DNA from: Deltaproteobacteria bacterium
GTDB taxonomy: Bacteria; Desulfobacterota; GWC2-55-46; UBA9637
Direction of reading: 5' to 3'
DNA length: 40,698 bases
Assembly: GCA_030690165.1 (NCBI GenBank)
Contig: JAUYHF010000007.1
Span: 90,722-131,419, forward strand
A program made the translations under genes and the position numbers. Every line of letters begins with the position of its first letter. The stretch's first letter is position 1. This document shows, one piece after another, positions 5,073-35,174 of this stretch. The notes beneath the pieces are model-generated. The model saw nothing but the letters and a program-made list of their open reading frames with translations. It had not been told where the DNA came from and searched no databases.

Positions 5073-5103
5073 GTATAGTAAGCGCTAAAAATAAATAGAC
5101 ATC

Positions 5104-5164
5104 GTAGCTCAAGGCTTTAGCCTTGAAAGTCTTGAGAAACCTCAAACCTGAAGGTTTGAGCTAC
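5104..5164. repeat. GTAG-type REPIN (two hairpins) between ruvB and queH
   Basis: The element runs from GTAGCTCAAGG to GGTTTGAGCTAC. It contains hairpin 1 (CTCAAGGCT/AGCCTTGA) and hairpin 2 (TCAAACCT/AGGTTTGA), with inverted ends GTAGCTCAA/TTGAGCTAC. A GTAG tetranucleotide beside a palindrome is the established mark of REP sequences mobilised by RAYT proteins. A shorter copy is inserted in the adjacent queH coding sequence. Confidence 0.85.
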
Positions 5165-5186
5165 AGAAGAATGCCAACTTTAATTT

Positions 5187-5780
5187 ATGAAACTACTCGT
5201 CCACATCTGCTGCGGCCCATGTGCCATATATCCGCTCAAGAAAATAGTTGATGGGAGGATGGATGTATGGGGATTTTTCTACAACCCGAATATCCACCCC
5301 TATACAGAATATCAAAAAAGACTTGCTGCTGTGAAATCCCTTGCTGAGAAGATGGATATAGAAATGATTTACAGAGATGAATATAACCTTGAGGAGTTTT
5401 TGAAGAATACATTAAAAGCAGAAATTGTAACTCAAGGCTTTAGCCTTGAGAATATCAAACCTGAAGGTTTGAGTTACAATAGGCCTGCCCGATGCGGCTA
5501 TTGCTATTCCTCCCGGCTTGAGGCAACAGCAAAGGCTGCAAAGGAAAACGGTTTTGACTATTTTTCATCATCCCTTCTTTACAGCAAATATCAGAACCAC
5601 GATGAGATAAAAAATATCGGCAATGAATTGGCAGAAAAATACGGTATCCCATTTTACTATGATGATTTTAGAATCGGCTGGAAACAAGGCATTAAAGAAT
5701 CGAAAGAGATGGGGCTTTACCGGCAAAAGTATTGCGGATGCATATTCAGCGAAAAGGAGAGGTATTTAGCAGTTAAATAA
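5187..5780 (+). CDS. queH: Epoxyqueuosine reductase QueH (with in-frame REPIN insertion)
   Basis: 197 residues. QueH reduces epoxyqueuosine in tRNA to queuosine, the last step of the pathway, and is the non-cobalamin replacement for QueG. The family's N-terminal HICCGPCAIYP (adjacent cysteines for metal/FeS binding), FYNPNIHPYTEYQKR, a CGYCYSSRL motif and a C-terminal YCGCIFSE are all present, so the key cysteines are intact. Residues 81-97 (VTQGFSLENIKPEGLSY) are encoded exactly by a 51-bp REPIN copy and separate FLKNTLKAEI from NRPARCGYC. The insertion preserves the frame and falls in a loop just before the second cysteine pair. No other queuosine gene is nearby. Confidence 0.93.
   Translation: MKLLVHICCGPCAIYPLKKIVDGRMDVWGFFYNPNIHPYTEYQKRLAAVKSLAEKMDIEMIYRDEYNLEEFLKNTLKAEIVTQGFSLENIKPEGLSYNRPARCGYCYSSRLEATAKAAKENGFDYFSSSLLYSKYQNHDEIKNIGNELAEKYGIPFYYDDFRIGWKQGIKESKEMGLYRQKYCGCIFSEKERYLAVK
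5427..5477. repeat. REPIN copy inserted in frame within queH
   Basis: Runs from GTAACTCAAGGC to GGTTTGAGTTAC. It matches the 61-bp element at 5104-5164 over both hairpins, but with a shorter central spacer, giving 51 bp (17 codons) starting exactly on a codon boundary. Both palindromes are kept (CTCAAGGCT/AGCCTTGAG and TCAAACCT/AGGTTTGA). The terminal changes GTAG to GTAA and CTAC to TTAC occur on both ends and so keep the ends complementary; on the forward strand they also avoid a TAG. Confidence 0.9.
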
Positions 5781-13947: not shown

Positions 13948-13976
13948 GAAGATTATTCTTATTGCTCCGAAAATAG

Positions 13977-14102
13977 CCCATCCCCACCCTAACCCTCCCC
14001 TTGAATGGGAGGGAACAAAAAAGTCTCCTCTCCATCAGGGAGAGGATTAAAGCTTGCCCCCGAAGTATTTATCGGGGGGTGAGGGTGGGGTTAATTTTCA
14101 TC
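13977..14102. repeat. Long palindromic interspersed repeat, copy 1 (with a nested hairpin)
   Basis: Starts CCCATCCCCACCCTAACC and ends with GGGTGAGGGTGGGG then TTAATTTTCAT. Inside are the hairpins CTCCCCTTGAATGGGAG and CTCTCCATCAGGGAGAG, and the two ends are complementary. A further perfect 7-bp hairpin (CCCCCGA/TCGGGGG, 14057-14078) interrupts it. The other copy, without this insert, is at 32731-32830 in opposite orientation. It fills most of the gap between the WD40-caspase gene and the MAT gene. Confidence 0.85.
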
Positions 14103-14157
14103 CCCCTTTGTGAGCCAAAGGCTCGTTAGGGTTTCACCTGATAAAGAGGTATAACAA

Positions 14158-25803: not shown

Positions 25804-27201
25804 ATGTTTGACAAATACAAAGACGAGTGCGGCGTGTTCGGCATATTCGGCCATACAGAGGCTGCGAATATGACATATCTCGGCCTTTATGCGCTTCAGC
25901 ACAGAGGCCAGGAGAGCGCCGGGATTGTCTCGTCTGACGGAAAAGAGCTTTATTCCCAAAAAGCAATGGGCCTTGTGGCTGATATATTCAGCGAGGATGT
26001 TTTAAAAAAACTCCCGGGTCAGGCTGCTATAGGTCATGTGCGCTATTCTACAACAGGCGACAGCCATCTCAAAAATGCCCAGCCGTTTGTTATTGACTAT
26101 TCCAGAGGCGCAATAGCTGTTGCCCATAATGGAAATCTGGTTAATGCCCGGATTTTGCGGGATGAGTTGGAGGCATACGGCTCCATATTTCAGTCAAGCA
26201 CGGATACGGAAGTTCTTGTCCATCTCATTGCCCAATCCAAAGCCAATACCCTGACAGACAGGATTGCCGACAGCCTGAAACGGGTAAGAGGCGCATACTC
26301 CCTTGTATTTCTTACAGGGACTCAGATGGTTGCTGTCCGCGACCCGAGCGGCTTCAGGCCGCTTGCCCTCGGCAGGCTGAAAGACGGATGGGTGGTTGCC
26401 TCTGAGACATGCGCATTTGACCTGATTGAGGCGGAATATGTCAGGGATATTGAACCCGGCGAAATACTTCTTATTGACAAGCTTGGCCCGAGGTCATTCA
26501 AGCCATTTGACAAAGTTCCATATACGCCATGCATATTTGAATTTATCTATTTTGCAAGACCTGACAGCAATATATTCGGGGCAAATGTATATGCTGTGAG
26601 AAAAAATTTTGGAAGGGAACTTGCCATAGAGAATCCTATAGATGCGGATATTGTTATTCCTGTTCCAGACTCAGGCGTTCCTGCTGCAATAGGGTTTGCA
26701 GAAGAATCTAACATACTGTTTCAAATGGGCTTAATCAGAAGCCACTATGTGGGCAGGACATTTATAGAGCCAAAGGACGCCATAAGGCACTTCGGCGTAA
26801 AAATAAAACTTAATGCGGTAAAAGAACTGCTTAAAGGCAAAAAAGTTGTTGTGATAGACGACTCCATTGTCCGGGGCACTACCAGCAGAAAGATTGTAAA
26901 GATGATAAGAGACGCAGGGGCAAAAGAGGTGCATATGATGATTAGTTCCCCGCCCACTGTCTGCCCATGCTACTACGGAATAGACACGCCCACCAAGAAT
27001 GAGCTTATCGCCTCCTCCCATAATATAGATGAAATAACCAAATACATTACAGCAGACACCCTCAGATATTTAAGCATAGAAGGCCTGTATAAGGCCGTTG
27101 CCGATGCAGGCGGAAATTTTTGCGACGCCTGTTTTACCGGAAAATATCCTATAGAATTCCCGACCGAGGGCAGGGAGCCGCAGTTGGCGCTGTTTAAGTA
27201 G
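25804..27201 (+). CDS. purF: Amidophosphoribosyltransferase (PRPP amidotransferase)
   Basis: 465 residues. It makes phosphoribosylamine from PRPP and glutamine, the first step of purine synthesis. The N-terminus MFDKYKDE is a propeptide; Cys9 begins the Ntn-hydrolase glutaminase domain ([31 protein letters not shown]). The PRPP loop is [14 protein letters not shown] near residue 355. Cysteines in CPCYYGID and CDACFTGK fit the iron-sulfur-containing B. subtilis type. The TAG stop (27199-27201) lies inside the GTAG end of a REP element, so the natural C-terminus may have been altered slightly. It is in one unit with purL. Confidence 0.97.
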
Positions 27202-27347
27202 TTGCGGACATTTATGTCCGCCGAATGGCCGACCTAAAGGTCGGCAATTACGTGGAAATGTAGCCGCGAACCTTTAGGTTCGCCAAAACTGCCGACCATA
27301 AAGGTCGGCAACTACGAAAAAATGTAGTTGCGGACATTTATGTCCGC
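27198..27347. repeat. REP array upstream of the RAYT gene
   Basis: Two full REPINs, at 27198-27251 (GTAGTTGC, hairpin GGACAT/ATGTCC, hairpin GCCGACCT/AGGTCGGC, ending AATTAC) and 27260-27315 (GTAGCCGC to CAACTAC), are followed by a half element at 27324-27347. All begin with GTAG and share the GCCGACC/GGTCGGC palindrome or the GGACAT/ATGTCC one. This is the arrangement called BIME in enterobacteria. The first element overlaps the purF stop codon. Confidence 0.9.
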
Positions 27348-27365
27348 TAATATTAGAAGACAAAA

Positions 27366-27830
27366 ATGCTATTCCCAAAAGTTCCAAGACTTAAAAAGTT
27401 TGATTATAAAGGTCCTTACGCATATTTCATTACCATTTGCACCAATTTTAAGAACCAGTATTTCGTTGAGAAGGAAACTGTTGAAGCGGTATTAAGTCTT
27501 TTGAAAGGTTGTGCATCTGATTACAGGTTTAAAATATTTGCCTATTGTTTTATGCCAGACCATCTTCATATCCTATTACAGGGAGAAGAAGATTCTTCTT
27601 TAAAAGAATTCATGAGGATATTCAAACAAAAGACAGAATGGTGTTTTAAGAAGAATAGACAAAAAGCACTGTGGCAAAAAAGCTATTATGACCATGTTGT
27701 GCGAAAGGATGAGGCTATTGAGGGAATCAGCCGATATATATTAGGAAACCCTGTTAGAAAAGGGATGGTCAATGATTTTAGAGATTATCCATTTTCAGGT
27801 TCAATGATTTTTGATATAAATAAAATGTAG
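27366..27830 (+). CDS. REP-associated tyrosine transposase (RAYT, Y1 family)
   Basis: 154 residues. The HUH-type Y1 fold is seen in YFITICTNFKNQYF, the metal-binding FMPDHLHILLQ near residue 62, and the catalytic-tyrosine helix GISRYILGNPVRKGMV near residue 122, followed by YPFSGS. RAYT proteins cut and move REP hairpins that carry GTAG, and are domesticated single-copy relatives of IS200/IS605. Arrays of exactly such REPs flank it on both sides. The TAG stop codon (27828-27830) is itself part of the first downstream REP. The ribosome-binding site is weak. Confidence 0.94.
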   Translation: MLFPKVPRLKKFDYKGPYAYFITICTNFKNQYFVEKETVEAVLSLLKGCASDYRFKIFAYCFMPDHLHILLQGEEDSSLKEFMRIFKQKTEWCFKKNRQKALWQKSYYDHVVRKDEAIEGISRYILGNPVRKGMVNDFRDYPFSGSMIFDINKM

Positions 27831-27946
27831 TTGCGGACATTTATGTCCGCCGAATGGCCGACCATAAAGGTCGGCAACTACGTGGAGAATGTAGCCGCTA
27901 ACCTTTATGTTCGCCAAAACTGCCGACCATAAAGGTCGGCGACTAC
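27827..27946. repeat. REP array downstream of the RAYT gene
   Basis: REPINs at 27827-27881 (GTAGTTGCGGACAT to GGCAACTAC) and 27891-27946 (GTAGCCGC to GGCGACTAC) repeat the upstream pair in the same order and orientation. The pair on the left and the pair on the right are nearly identical, so the RAYT gene sits between two copies of a two-REPIN unit. Confidence 0.9.
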
Positions 27947-27975
27947 AAAAGAATAATTAAAACAGGAGACGCATT

Positions 27976-29214
27976 ATGAAAAGGATATTTGGATATTTTT
28001 TAATTTTGAGTGTGCTTATTTTGCTTGCAGGGTGTGCAACAACAACGCCATTAATGAGTGCGATAGAAAGGGGTAATATTAATGCGGTAAAAGAATTGCT
28101 AAATAAGGGCGCTGATGTTAATGAAAAAGACAGTGGTGGCTGGACTCCTTTGCTGGGGGCGGCATATTGGGGCAACACAGAGGCTGCAAAGCTCTTAATA
28201 GACAAAGGCGCTGATGTTAATGCAACAAACAATCGTGGCTGGACTCCTTTGCTGAGGGCCGCATTGATGGGTAATACAGAAATTGCAAAGCTCCTTATAG
28301 AAAAAGGTGCTAACATAGATAAGGCTCTTGCAGCTATGGAGATAACTGCTATCGATATCGAGTACCCCCTCCACGCGGCAGAGGCAAAGGCTGGCATTAA
28401 ATTTCTTGAGAGGCTTAAACCAAAGCAGGAAGTTGCAAGCCAGCCATCTCAAGGCATCTCAAAAGAAGAACTCAAGACCATTGTGCAGGCTGCTGTTGAA
28501 GGCGCTAAGACCCAAAAACAAGAATCCAAGTCTCCTTCCGTACAATCAGACATTGACAAGCCTTCGTTCAATACAGCAGAAAAAATTATGGGAGACAACG
28601 ACCTCGCAGTGATTATCGGCATAGAAGGGTATCAGGGTATTCCAAAGTCAGATTATTCTTACGACGATGCAAATCTTGTGGGTGATTATGCAAAGGCCAT
28701 GGGCTTTAAGCCGAGAAACATAGAACTGCTTTTGGAGGAAAGGGCAACTAAATCGGCCATTGAAAAGATTATAAAGACATGGCTGCCTAACAAGGCAAAG
28801 CCCGACAGCAGGGTGTTTATCTACTATTCAGGACACGGTGCGCCTGAGCCAAAGACAGGAGACGCTTATATTGTTCCGTTTGACGGAGACCCGAACTATC
28901 TCTCTGATACAGGGTATCCTCTCAAGAGTCTTTATGACAGCCTCGGCAAATTGCAGGTTGCAGAGGTGACGGTTGTGCTTGACGCATGCTTCTCAGGAGC
29001 AGGAGGAAGGTCTGTTCTTGCAAAAGGCTCAAGGCCGTTGGTTATGATGGCAGATGTGTCTGTCCTTTCATCAAACATGGCAGTTCTTTCGGCAACACAA
29101 GGGACGCAGATTTCCACATCATCAACCGAGAAAGGGCATGGCGTGTTTACATACTATTTCTTGAAAGCTTTAAAAGACGGCAAAAAACGATTGCAGAGAT
29201 TTACGAATACATAA
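27976..29214 (+). CDS. Lipoprotein with ankyrin repeats and caspase-like domain (C-terminus frameshifted)
   Basis: 412 residues as read. Signal peptide with a classic lipobox LLAGC (Cys about 20). Residues about 25-115 hold three ankyrin repeats (GGWTPLLGAAYWGNTEAAKLLIDKGADVNA is one unit, quoted only in part). A low-complexity linker leads to the caspase fold from about residue 212: LAVIIGIEGYQGIPKSDYSYDDANLV, catalytic His287 in YYSGHGAPEPKTGDA and Cys338 in VLDACFSGAGG. The frame ends early after KDGKKRLQRFTNT. The conserved tail (IYEYIKP, NVQQSP) is found in the -1 frame from an A6 run at 29182-29187. No EF-hand loop is present, unlike its paralogues. Confidence 0.88.
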   Translation: MKRIFGYFLILSVLILLAGCATTTPLMSAIERGNINAVKELLNKGADVNEKDSGGWTPLLGAAYWGNTEAAKLLIDKGADVNATNNRGWTPLLRAALMGNTEIAKLLIEKGANIDKALAAMEITAIDIEYPLHAAEAKAGIKFLERLKPKQEVASQPSQGISKEELKTIVQAAVEGAKTQKQESKSPSVQSDIDKPSFNTAEKIMGDNDLAVIIGIEGYQGIPKSDYSYDDANLVGDYAKAMGFKPRNIELLLEERATKSAIEKIIKTWLPNKAKPDSRVFIYYSGHGAPEPKTGDAYIVPFDGDPNYLSDTGYPLKSLYDSLGKLQVAEVTVVLDACFSGAGGRSVLAKGSRPLVMMADVSVLSSNMAVLSATQGTQISTSSTEKGHGVFTYYFLKALKDGKKRLQRFTNT

Positions 29215-31206: not shown

Positions 31207-32700
31207 ATGAAAAGGATATTAGATAAATATTGGAAGTGTCCCCCAATTATTCTTTCACGCATAGCGGGGGGTTGCCTTTTACTGGGCTGGCTCTTTGCTG
31301 GCTGTGTCAGTCTTCCCGAGCATCAAGACCCGTTGGCCGGCTTGAGGCCGGATGCGTCCGCTCAAAATACCTTCAAGAACCTGACCGTTGGCATCATTTT
31401 ATCGGAGAATTCCAAGAAAACCGCCGAATACATGGAGAGGTGGCAGAAAACGTTTCGAGTTCCTGTCAATATAGAAGCAATCTTCGGAGAAGTCATAGCC
31501 GCATTGCAAAGGAATTTCAAATCAGCGGTGCGGTTGGACACGATCGAGGATGCCCGGGCTGCTCCTACGGATCTGACGGCGGTGATCGACATCACAGCGA
31601 AAATGCCCGGTAGCATCTTTGAGGAGAATTGGTTCAACGCCAGCGTGGTCTTGTTGGCTCCGGACCAAACACGGATAGATACGGTTACTGGCCGAATAGA
31701 TAGATTCATCGTCCCCGACGGGACAAGAGAGATGGACGGTCTGCGCAAGGGTGCAGCTGAAGCGAGCCTCAAATTAGAGAACGCGCTGCTGTCCTCCAAA
31801 AAGGCCGCGGCTTTCGCTCTTGCAAAATCGAACGCCCCCAAGGCGGCGATAGCTCAGACATTTGCACCCCAAGCGGCTCCCGAACACAAAGTGACTTCGT
31901 CTGATGTCGACGAACTTCCTGCAATAAAAGCAAAACCCAACAAAAACTCCTATGCCATTGTAATTGGCATTGAACAATACCGTCAGAAACTTCCAAAGGC
32001 TGATTTTGCGACACATGACGCACAGACAATGACCGAATATCTAACAAAGGTGATGGGTTATCCAGAGGAGAATGTTGTTACGCTAATAAATGAACATGCT
32101 GCAAAGAGCGATTTTGAAAAATACTTTGAGAAATGGCTGCCGAATAATGCAGAGAAAGACGGCACAGTCTTTATATACTACTCAGGACACGGAGCACCTA
32201 ACCCAAAGACAGGGGATGCATTTCTTGTGCCTTATGACGGAGACCCGGCATTTATTGACCAGACAGGATATTCTCTGAAAAGGCTTTATGACAATCTTGG
32301 AAAACTTCAGGCAAAAGAAATCATAGTTGCCCTTGATTCGTGTTTTTCAGGCGCAGGCGGAAGGAGCGTAATAGCGAAAGGCGCAAGGCCGCTGGTTATG
32401 AATATGGAAAGCTTTACTATTCCTCAGAAGATATCAGTTCTTTCAGCCTCATCAGGAGACCAGATAAGTTCAACATACGAGGAAAAAGGGCATGGGCTGT
32501 TTACATACTTTATGTTGAAGGGAATCAAAGGAGAAGGCGATACAAATGGAGATGGGACAGTAGAGATAAGAGAACTATTCAATTACATCAAACCACAGGT
32601 AGAGCGGATTGCAAGAAAGGTCTATAACAACGAACAATCTCCGCAGTTGATTGCGCCATCGGAAAAGCAGGAGATGTTTTTGATAGAAAAGACAAAATGA
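31207..32700 (+). CDS. Caspase-domain lipoprotein with unknown N-terminal domain
   Basis: 497 residues. After a short basic extension, a hydrophobic segment with lipobox LFAGC (Cys about 36) suggests export and lipid anchoring. Residues about 55-210 form an unrecognised alpha/beta domain (LTVGIILSENSKKTAEYME, IFGEVIAALQRNF, ASVVLLAPDQTRIDTVTG). From SDVDELPAIKAKPNKNSYAI (about residue 236) comes the caspase module, with His328 in YYSGHGAPNPKTGDAF and Cys379 in LDSCFSGAGG. An EF-hand-like loop is at 445-456 (DTNGDGTVEIRE). The module is about 88% identical by hand count to that of the gene at 33696 while the N-termini differ. The AGGAGGT site precedes the ATG. Confidence 0.9.
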   Translation: MKRILDKYWKCPPIILSRIAGGCLLLGWLFAGCVSLPEHQDPLAGLRPDASAQNTFKNLTVGIILSENSKKTAEYMERWQKTFRVPVNIEAIFGEVIAALQRNFKSAVRLDTIEDARAAPTDLTAVIDITAKMPGSIFEENWFNASVVLLAPDQTRIDTVTGRIDRFIVPDGTREMDGLRKGAAEASLKLENALLSSKKAAAFALAKSNAPKAAIAQTFAPQAAPEHKVTSSDVDELPAIKAKPNKNSYAIVIGIEQYRQKLPKADFATHDAQTMTEYLTKVMGYPEENVVTLINEHAAKSDFEKYFEKWLPNNAEKDGTVFIYYSGHGAPNPKTGDAFLVPYDGDPAFIDQTGYSLKRLYDNLGKLQAKEIIVALDSCFSGAGGRSVIAKGARPLVMNMESFTIPQKISVLSASSGDQISSTYEEKGHGLFTYFMLKGIKGEGDTNGDGTVEIRELFNYIKPQVERIARKVYNNEQSPQLIAPSEKQEMFLIEKTK

Positions 32701-32730
32701 AACATCCATGACCTTCGGTCACAAGGGAAC

Positions 32731-32830
32731 ATGAAAATTAACCCCACCCTCACCTTAATCCTCTCCCTGAGGGAGAGGAAACTTTTTCGTTCCCTCCCCT
32801 TCAAGGGGAGGGTTAGGGTGGGGATGGGGT
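32731..32830. repeat. Long palindromic interspersed repeat, copy 2 (reverse orientation)
   Basis: The reverse complement reads CCCATCCCCACCCTAACCC, hairpin CTCCCCTTGAAGGGGAG, hairpin CTCTCCCTCAGGGAGAG, then GGTGAGGGTGGGG and TTAATTTTCAT. It matches 13977-14102 nearly base for base but lacks the nested 7-bp hairpin found there. It lies between a caspase gene and the second DUF4384 gene. Confidence 0.87.
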
Positions 32831-32847
32831 AAAAGAGGTATTTTCAG

Positions 32848-33695: not shown

Positions 33696-35174
33696 ATGAG
33701 AAAGATATTTGATAAATATGGGAAGTGTTCCCCCTTTATTCTTGTGAAAAGCAATTTCCTATCATTGAGGCGCAGTGCGCTTTGTCTGGCCGCGATGGGG
33801 TTGTTCTTCGGGGGCTGCTCCACGACTATCCACATGCGCTACCAGCCGAGTTCGGCGGCCCGACCGCTGGATCTCGATGTGAAGCCCCGTATTTTCTTGG
33901 ACCAGGTCGAGGACCGCACCGGAGGAGGACAGATAGCCGGGCTGGGCGGGAGGGGAGGGTTCGTTCCCTCGATCTCCGAAAGCCTTCGGGAAGCTCTGGA
34001 GGTGGAATTCGGACGGCTGGGGATCCCTCTGGTCGCAAGCAGGGCCAAGGCAGATGCCGCCCTCAGCGTTGCGGTAACGATGGCCAGCACTCGCGGAACC
34101 CCGCAGGGTCTCACGGCGGACCTCGCCTCCATCCTCACCGTGAAAGGCTCCAGGGGCGAGAACCTTTGGGAGAACACTCTGCTCGGAAGCGGGATCAGCC
34201 AAGGCTACAACGTTTCACCGTGGGGCCCCGCCTTCACGGCGGCTCTGGCCGATCTGATGTCCAAGATAGGGCCGGTCTTCCAATCTCAGGACGTCGTCTC
34301 CAAGATACTGGCAGCTTCCTCTGTCTCCGCGGGCGACGCCGTCGGTCGAAAGGCGCGAGCCGAGCCGCCCGTCGTGCGTTCCGATGTTGACGAGCTTCCC
34401 TCAATAAAAGCAAAACCAAACAAAAACTCATACGCCATAGTCATCGGCATTGAGCAATATCGTCAGAAACTTCCCAAGGCTGATTTTGCGGTAGCTGATG
34501 CAAAGACAATGACAGAATATCTCACAAAGGTAATGGGCTATCCAGAAGAGAATGTTGTAACGCTTACAAATGAACACGCTGCAAAGAGCGATTTTGAGAA
34601 ATACTTTGAAAAGTGCTTGCCTAACAATGTAGAAAAGGATGGTTCTGTATTTATCTACTATTCAGGACACGGTGCGCCGAATGTGAAGACAGGGGACGCC
34701 TTCTTAGTGCCTTATGACGGAGACCCGTCATTCATTGCCGAGACCGGATATTCTTTAAAAAGACTCTATGAAGCCCTCGGAAAACTCCCGGCAAAAGAAA
34801 TCATCGTTGCACTTGATTCGTGTTTTTCAGGCGCAGGGGGGAAATCTGTCATTGCAAAAGGAGCGAGGCCGCTTGTAATGACAATGGAAAGTTTAGCAAT
34901 CCCTTCAAAAGTAGGAGTCCTTTCTGCCTCATCAGGAGATCAGATAAGTTCCACATATGAAGAAAAAGGGCATGGATTATTTACATACTTTATGCTCAAA
35001 GGCTTAAAAGGCGATGGCGATGTCAATGGAGATGGAAAAGTTGAATTAGGAGAACTGTTTAACTATATCAAGCCGCAGGTGGAGCGCATTGCCAGAAAAA
35101 CTTATAATAATGAACAGTCGCCGCAACTAATTGCGCCGAATGAATTGATGAAACAGAAACTAATGGAAAAATGA
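33696..35174 (+). CDS. Caspase-domain lipoprotein with GC-rich foreign N-terminal domain
   Basis: 492 residues from ATG 33696. A hydrophobic segment ends in FFGGC (Cys about 44), a probable lipobox. Residues about 50-215 form a domain (LDVKPRIFLDQVEDRTGGGQ, SISESLREALEVEFGRLGIP, ADAALSVAVTMAS) that recalls YajG-type outer-membrane lipoproteins, at low confidence. From SDVDELPSIKAKPNKNSYAI comes the caspase module with His325 and Cys376 (LDSCFSGAGG) and an EF-hand-like loop 442-453 (DVNGDGKVELGE). Bases 33841-33960 are about 62-72% GC by line count, while the caspase part is near 40%, so the N-terminal piece is foreign to the rest. A pair of large overlapping frames in this part is an effect of the GC content. 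Confidence 0.9.
   Translation: MRKIFDKYGKCSPFILVKSNFLSLRRSALCLAAMGLFFGGCSTTIHMRYQPSSAARPLDLDVKPRIFLDQVEDRTGGGQIAGLGGRGGFVPSISESLREALEVEFGRLGIPLVASRAKADAALSVAVTMASTRGTPQGLTADLASILTVKGSRGENLWENTLLGSGISQGYNVSPWGPAFTAALADLMSKIGPVFQSQDVVSKILAASSVSAGDAVGRKARAEPPVVRSDVDELPSIKAKPNKNSYAIVIGIEQYRQKLPKADFAVADAKTMTEYLTKVMGYPEENVVTLTNEHAAKSDFEKYFEKCLPNNVEKDGSVFIYYSGHGAPNVKTGDAFLVPYDGDPSFIAETGYSLKRLYEALGKLPAKEIIVALDSCFSGAGGKSVIAKGARPLVMTMESLAIPSKVGVLSASSGDQISSTYEEKGHGLFTYFMLKGLKGDGDVNGDGKVELGELFNYIKPQVERIARKTYNNEQSPQLIAPNELMKQKLMEK

Follow-up and report, generated by a model that had tools for sequence, protein, structure and literature searches.

How can a gene for a conserved enzyme carry a dispersed palindromic repeat within its reading frame and stay intact? 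The locus that raises this question is the queH gene in a window of 40,698 nucleotides—the whole stretch of DNA that was analysed—and the repeat is a 51-bp REPIN, that is, a codon-phased inverted pair of 23-nt REPs inside the intact frame. A preliminary description of this DNA had reported such an in-frame REPIN, starting on a codon boundary, keeping both hairpins, and adding 17 residues, and these features are confirmed (Table 1). The element features the layout GTAACTCAAGGCTTTAGCCTTGA, a 5-bp spacer, and TCAAACCTGAAGGTTTGAGTTAC, with the arms inverted. The REP pattern occurs four times in the window compared with 0 matches expected from 100 shuffles of the window, and reversed-pattern controls gave 0 matches in every searched genome—hence, a chance origin is excluded. 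As single-stranded DNA, the REPIN folds with an energy of -15.2 kcal/mol (z -7.5). Two copies in G009, both apparently intergenic, match it at all 51 bp (G000 denotes the own genome of the window, and G002–G014 denote relatives and outgroups).

Table 1. Features at the queH locus, in positions of the window
Feature	Position	Strand	Description
MITE-like repeat carrying the 61-bp REPIN	5074..5189	+	alignment of 7 copies
REPIN, GTAG subfamily, 61 bp (the longer copy)	5104..5164	+	7 own-genome copies, all with the same flanks
queH, epoxyqueuosine reductase QueH, 197 aa	5187..5780	+	intact frame with insert; Pfam PF02677, E 1.1e-62
REPIN (two inverted REPs)	5427..5477	+	translated VTQGFSLENIKPEGLSY, QueH residues 81-97
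Left REP arm	5427..5449	+	GTAA tag and CTCAAGGC/GCCTTGAG hairpin; 0 mismatches to the family pattern
Spacer GAATA, 5 bp	5450..5454	+	between the REP arms of the queH REPIN
Right REP arm	5455..5477	-	GTAA tag and TCAAACC/GGTTTGA hairpin; 0 mismatches to the family pattern

The length of 51 bp is a whole number of codons, and the REPIN has one open frame per strand (frame 0). Its tags had been taken as matched changes from GTAG to GTAA and from CTAC to TTAC that left no TAG on the forward strand. This part of the preliminary description does not stand: an out-of-frame TAG persists in TTTAGCC, and GTAA is the norm of the family, being carried by 251 of the 299 arms in the fetched loci, with GTAG carried by 33. 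Avoidance of TAG is rejected as an explanation, a GTAG version being open in the same single frame 0 per strand as the GTAA version. GTAA is one base off the REP tag as described, which is GTAG or GTGG in the accessible text of PMC6006769; a sister family in G005 bears GTAG.

The product of the gene is recognized as QueH by phmmer against the solved QueH of T. maritima (E 8.6e-34), and its predicted fold matches the same protein (7lc7; Foldseek E 4.4e-18). All seven cysteines—C8, C9, C12, C103, C106, C183, and C185—are invariant among 25 aligned QueH sequences, and dN/dS against relatives is 0.08–0.11 (five pairs); queH is under purifying selection. The AlphaFold2 model has a mean pLDDT of 85, with residues 85–98 below 50. 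The insert is predicted as a loop: it is a low-confidence stretch flanked by helices 68–82 and 101–120, the remaining fold being confident. In this model, the 17 residues look like a flexible loop adjoining the Cys103/Cys106 pair; the low pLDDT may also stem from the thin alignment at this place, where only one relative among the 25 sequences, G006, has a similar insert.

The REP arm belongs to a family with 76 matches in G000 (2.2 Mb), 89 in G009, and 50 in G010, with 0 in the reversed control. The exact arm is found in 11 of 63 genomes of the class, which are all 11 searched genomes of the order, and in none of the 52 class genomes from outside the order. REPs and REPINs are typically imperfect palindromes of 20–40 nt, dispersed in many copies, and the family with its 23-nt arms agrees with this. 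Its arrangement was assessed in 155 REP clusters from eight genomes, taken from loci fetched around pattern matches; this set omits the places in G006 and G007, most of those in G005, and some with a weaker match or an isolated position in G002, G003, G004, G008, G009 (two), and G000 (one). Inverted doublets are the main form among these clusters, as in other REPIN families, with 65 convergent and 56 divergent pairs; 29 of the convergent pairs measure 51 bp. At many places that seem to be intergenic, the 51-bp REPIN forms the tip of a larger hairpin, TTTATTGGGCG.ATT ... AA.CGCCGATAAATC (L051:982-1032, L172:1647-1697, L191:1600-1650, L049:937-987, and others), which suggests a nested element.

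A gene on contig C8 of G000 (L055:4686-5171, minus strand) encodes a 161-aa Y1 transposase and lies between a 59-bp and a 50-bp REPIN. The protein matches the NCBIfam model NF047646 REP_Tyr_transpos (REP-associated tyrosine transposase) with 102.7 bits at a cut-off of 80. Its homologue in G009 (contig C34) is identical at 145 of 161 residues, scores 103.9 bits with the same model, and is located between the same REPs. The family is, hence, accompanied in both genomes by a cognate RAYT flanked by the family's own REPs, as expected of a REPIN system. Judged by its sequence and surroundings, the RAYT of G000 is likely the mobiliser of the family, and it would also have moved the REPIN of queH. 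A second Y1 transposase gene is present in the window itself (27423-27740; G000:C7:118144-118461) and is flanked by a different REP-like repeat family (27195-27350 and 27824-27954).

The window carries further repeats. The longer copy that had been noted 260 bp upstream of the insert exists as a 61-bp REPIN, yet it is not a close counterpart of the insert, since it belongs to another subfamily and is nested in the middle of a MITE-like repeat. This repeat directly follows the ruvB stop codon, has imperfect terminal inverted repeats, and is present in seven copies in its own genome; on the right, it breaks off at ATTTATG, and this end provides the start codon of queH. As part of a seven-copy repeat with other ends and another spacing, the 61-bp copy is unlikely to be the source of the queH insert. 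Elsewhere, long inverted repeats lie 18.6 kb apart at positions 13974-14118 and 32714-32831 (77 nt at 94% and 41 nt at 85%), and three related coding-like direct repeats (28813-29047, 32167-32401, and 34647-34881) are perhaps paralogous genes.

The queH loop was compared at the DNA level in 11 genomes of the order and outgroups. The 51-bp REPIN occupies the same codon in G000, G009, and G010, the latter two belonging to another family, and the 17 residues are absent from QueH of G002, G003, and G004 (same genus), of G008 (same order), and of the outgroups G011 and G014. A relative with the peptide and no repeat would have spoken for native sequence; in fact, the peptide is always accompanied by the DNA repeat among the relatives, and those without the repeat lack the residues. 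The empty loop is 20 codons shorter, so that filled and empty sites differ by 60 bp rather than 51, and no target-site duplication is readable in the comparison of the 11 genomes—a clean insertion event is, therefore, not seen.

Two further genomes carry other elements in this loop. In G006, a divergent 17-codon REPIN, VRHGFSPAFSKPKGLPC, lies at the same codon. Its arms match the GTARGGC sister family at 21 and 20 of 23 positions and the CTCA family at 18 and 17 of 23, which makes the sister family the better fit. G005 has 37 matches to that family and G006 has four, one of which is the queH arm; given these few copies in G006, a drifted old CTCA copy is the alternative. The loop of G005 features a perfect GGGGACAGATTT palindrome (GTDFKSVP), which also occurs in loci of other genomes. 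The QueH loop, hence, holds three element types across five of the compared genomes. Near residue 23 of QueH, G010 and G005 carry in addition a 27-bp palindromic piece (PVPEGLNQG and HALEGLNQE), and related pieces recur elsewhere, also within ORFs.

The inserts of G000, G009, and G010 are identical at 49–50 of 51 positions compared with 77–80% in the flanks (241/300, 407/513, and 230/300), the pairs not being independent. Where an assumed dS of 1.2 would predict 6.2 synonymous differences in the insert, 0–1 are observed. The arms show 0 differences in 46 positions among the three queH copies and likewise among three copies in ppc, and arms outside these two genes are also very alike, with a mean of 1.7 mismatches in 46. 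Such identity could stem from recent arrival, from conversion by other copies, or from constraint. The near-identical insert between diverged flanks and the few synonymous differences would speak for independent or recent arrival. The common codon and 15 bp of left flank that the filled sites share and the empty sites lack would favour a single event, inherited or transferred. The 5-nt spacers are only weakly gene-specific, random triples being at least as alike as those of queH in 3137 of 20000 draws, as those of ppc in 1355, and as both jointly in 408.

REPs had been said to avoid coding regions as a rule, and the copies in coding sequence are a minority in this set as well. Counting a cluster as internal if it lies at least 12 codons from the start and stop of an ORF of at least 140 aa, 19 of the 155 clusters (in 14 genes) are inside ORFs compared with 2135 of 3100 windows placed at random in these loci. 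The remaining 136 are not internal by this rule, in line with the mostly extragenic placement of REPs, and in G000 alone the only internal cluster among 39 is that of queH. Convergent pairs of 51 bp are internal in 8 of 29 cases versus 1 of 36 for other lengths (Fisher P 0.008), as expected if the survivors are frame-keeping copies only. The hosts named by Pfam are QueH, PEP carboxylase, a UvrD-like helicase, a RecN-like SMC_N protein, an outer-membrane efflux protein, O-antigen ligase, a GAF/HD protein, NAD(P)HX epimerase/dehydratase, ACPS, thiamine-phosphate synthase, and a TPR/GHL13 protein, with CobO, PALP/TrpB, and a MauG-like protein as N-terminal cases. Doubtful among the 19 are CobO and TrpB (perhaps upstream of the true start), the MauG-like protein (in the region of the signal peptide), ThiE (beyond its domain), and the interrupted ppc copies of G009 and G010.

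Filled and empty sites were compared with relatives for five genes. The ppc insert is present in G002, G009, and G010 and absent from G000, G003, G006, G007, and G008. In G009 and G010 (L046 and L045), frameshifts that lie at a distance from the REPIN or directly behind it break the ppc frame in two, through either decay or assembly error. In recN, one and the same loop holds a divergent pair in G010 and a single REP in G003. The single REP of G003 (L220:1627-1649) substitutes eight native codons at unchanged protein length, as does one in nnrE of G004 (L240:1641-1663); such length-neutral replacement is unlike simple insertion and might reflect a loop that was trimmed later. The UvrD-like helicase carries different REP-like hairpins in the same loop in G003 and G006 and none in G000, G004, and G005. 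Another palindromic repeat, of the GTCCCCGAAGGTTTTAATCGGGGA type, is in frame in several ORFs (L010:2011, minus strand; L204, L202, L288, and L290); one host with this repeat in the same loop in two genomes is presumably an SMC-like protein.

It is, in our judgment, highly probable that the queH insert is a REPIN that was mobilised by a RAYT, landed in a permissive loop, and is translated as a tolerated flexible loop. The non-autonomous element would have inserted in its sole open phase and would be read as a flexible connection between the helix that ends near residue 82 and the one that begins at 101, shortly before Cys103/Cys106; it would be tolerated because the QueH fold and cysteines stay intact. 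The insert-bearing enzyme is probably made and active, and the added loop would be neutral. Counting against this reading are the GTAA arms compared with the described tags, the 60-bp size difference, and the lack of a target duplication. An origin of the 17 residues as native sequence of QueH, with coincidental hairpins, is extremely improbable, given their absence from four relatives of the same order and both outgroups, the same 51 bp at unrelated places, and the lack of chance matches.

The frameshift-split ppc genes of G009 and G010, which carry the same REPIN, indicate that some REP carriers may decay or be misassembled, so that the insert could also mark a queH gene on its way to a pseudogene. 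This is very unlikely for a gene that is full-length in G000 with all conserved cysteines and a dN/dS of about 0.1, and whose insert is common to three genomes without frame loss in the available sequence (the G009 copy runs off its contig). An insert kept for function would act either in the protein, as a loop tuning QueH, or in DNA or RNA, through an mRNA hairpin or one at the fork, with the arms conserved by selection. The unchanged arms within the queH and ppc triples, set between diverged queH flanks, would agree with this, and the additional codons shared in the left flank point to a common origin of the inserts in queH; but arms elsewhere are likewise very similar, so that recent arrival or conversion explains the identity as well, and sister species lack the insert or, in G006, have a divergent one. 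We regard such a function as unlikely. Beyond the REPIN of queH, several unrelated families of palindromic elements could land repeatedly in certain protein loops of this order. The 51-bp REPIN would then be compatible with coding sequence, and either conversion or selection would preserve its arms inside genes as the flanks drift. The mixed occupation of the QueH loop, and likewise of loops in the UvrD-like helicase, recN, and the SMC-like protein, is the basis of this idea, which is tentative and rather doubtful in its full extent.

Intragenic in-frame REPs as such are known already. The accessible text of Di Nocera et al. 2013 (PMC3733652) describes in-frame REPs and REP dimers, the latter encoding 20–30 residues, in genes of UvrD/REP helicase, recombination/repair, and tRNA modification (truA/truB), with recB occupied at the same site in two Xanthomonas. 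The elements studied here resemble these GTAG REPs in their in-frame single and dimeric forms, in helicase and tRNA-modification hosts, and in repeated same-site occupation, and differ from what is described there by the mostly GTAA tag, a new host lineage, and several REP families in one loop. The genes queH, ppc, recN, nnrE, and acpS do not appear by name in the main text of that paper as far as accessible, its gene list being in the supplement. Unusual here are the GTAA tag and the repeated occupation of the same loops. No prior report of in-frame REPs in this lineage or in queH was found in searches of open-access PMC papers.

As far as the available text of Bertels and Rainey 2011 (PMC3116915) goes, REPINs mobilised by RAYT share with the present family the dispersed inverted doublets and the RAYT gene flanked by the same REPs; only 14 of 1,067 sixteen-mers overlapped genes in that work, unlike the proportion of internal clusters found here. 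The Rickettsia palindromic elements, to which the preliminary description had compared the insert, are an older parallel. They are about 150 bp long (PMC10969869, in part) and, where REP-like, CGTC-tagged (PMC3733652, accessible text). The analogy is fair—both are palindromic repeats in frame within housekeeping genes with stop-free translation, here in 19 clusters within 14 genes, among them unrelated ones—but incomplete, as GTAG-type in-frame REPs had already been reported in several bacteria (PMC3733652, same text). The Rickettsia elements also differ by their length, their tag, the lack of a RAYT, and their lineage, the tag here being GTAA/GTAG and the relatives being Deltaproteobacteria MAGs.

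REPINs, usually regarded as confined to extragenic DNA, contribute sequence to conserved enzymes in this little-studied groundwater lineage, and one protein loop can be occupied by different element families in related species. With and without inserts, queH, recN, the helicase, and ppc are natural test cases for the gain of new loops by proteins and for the insertion sites of RAYTs.
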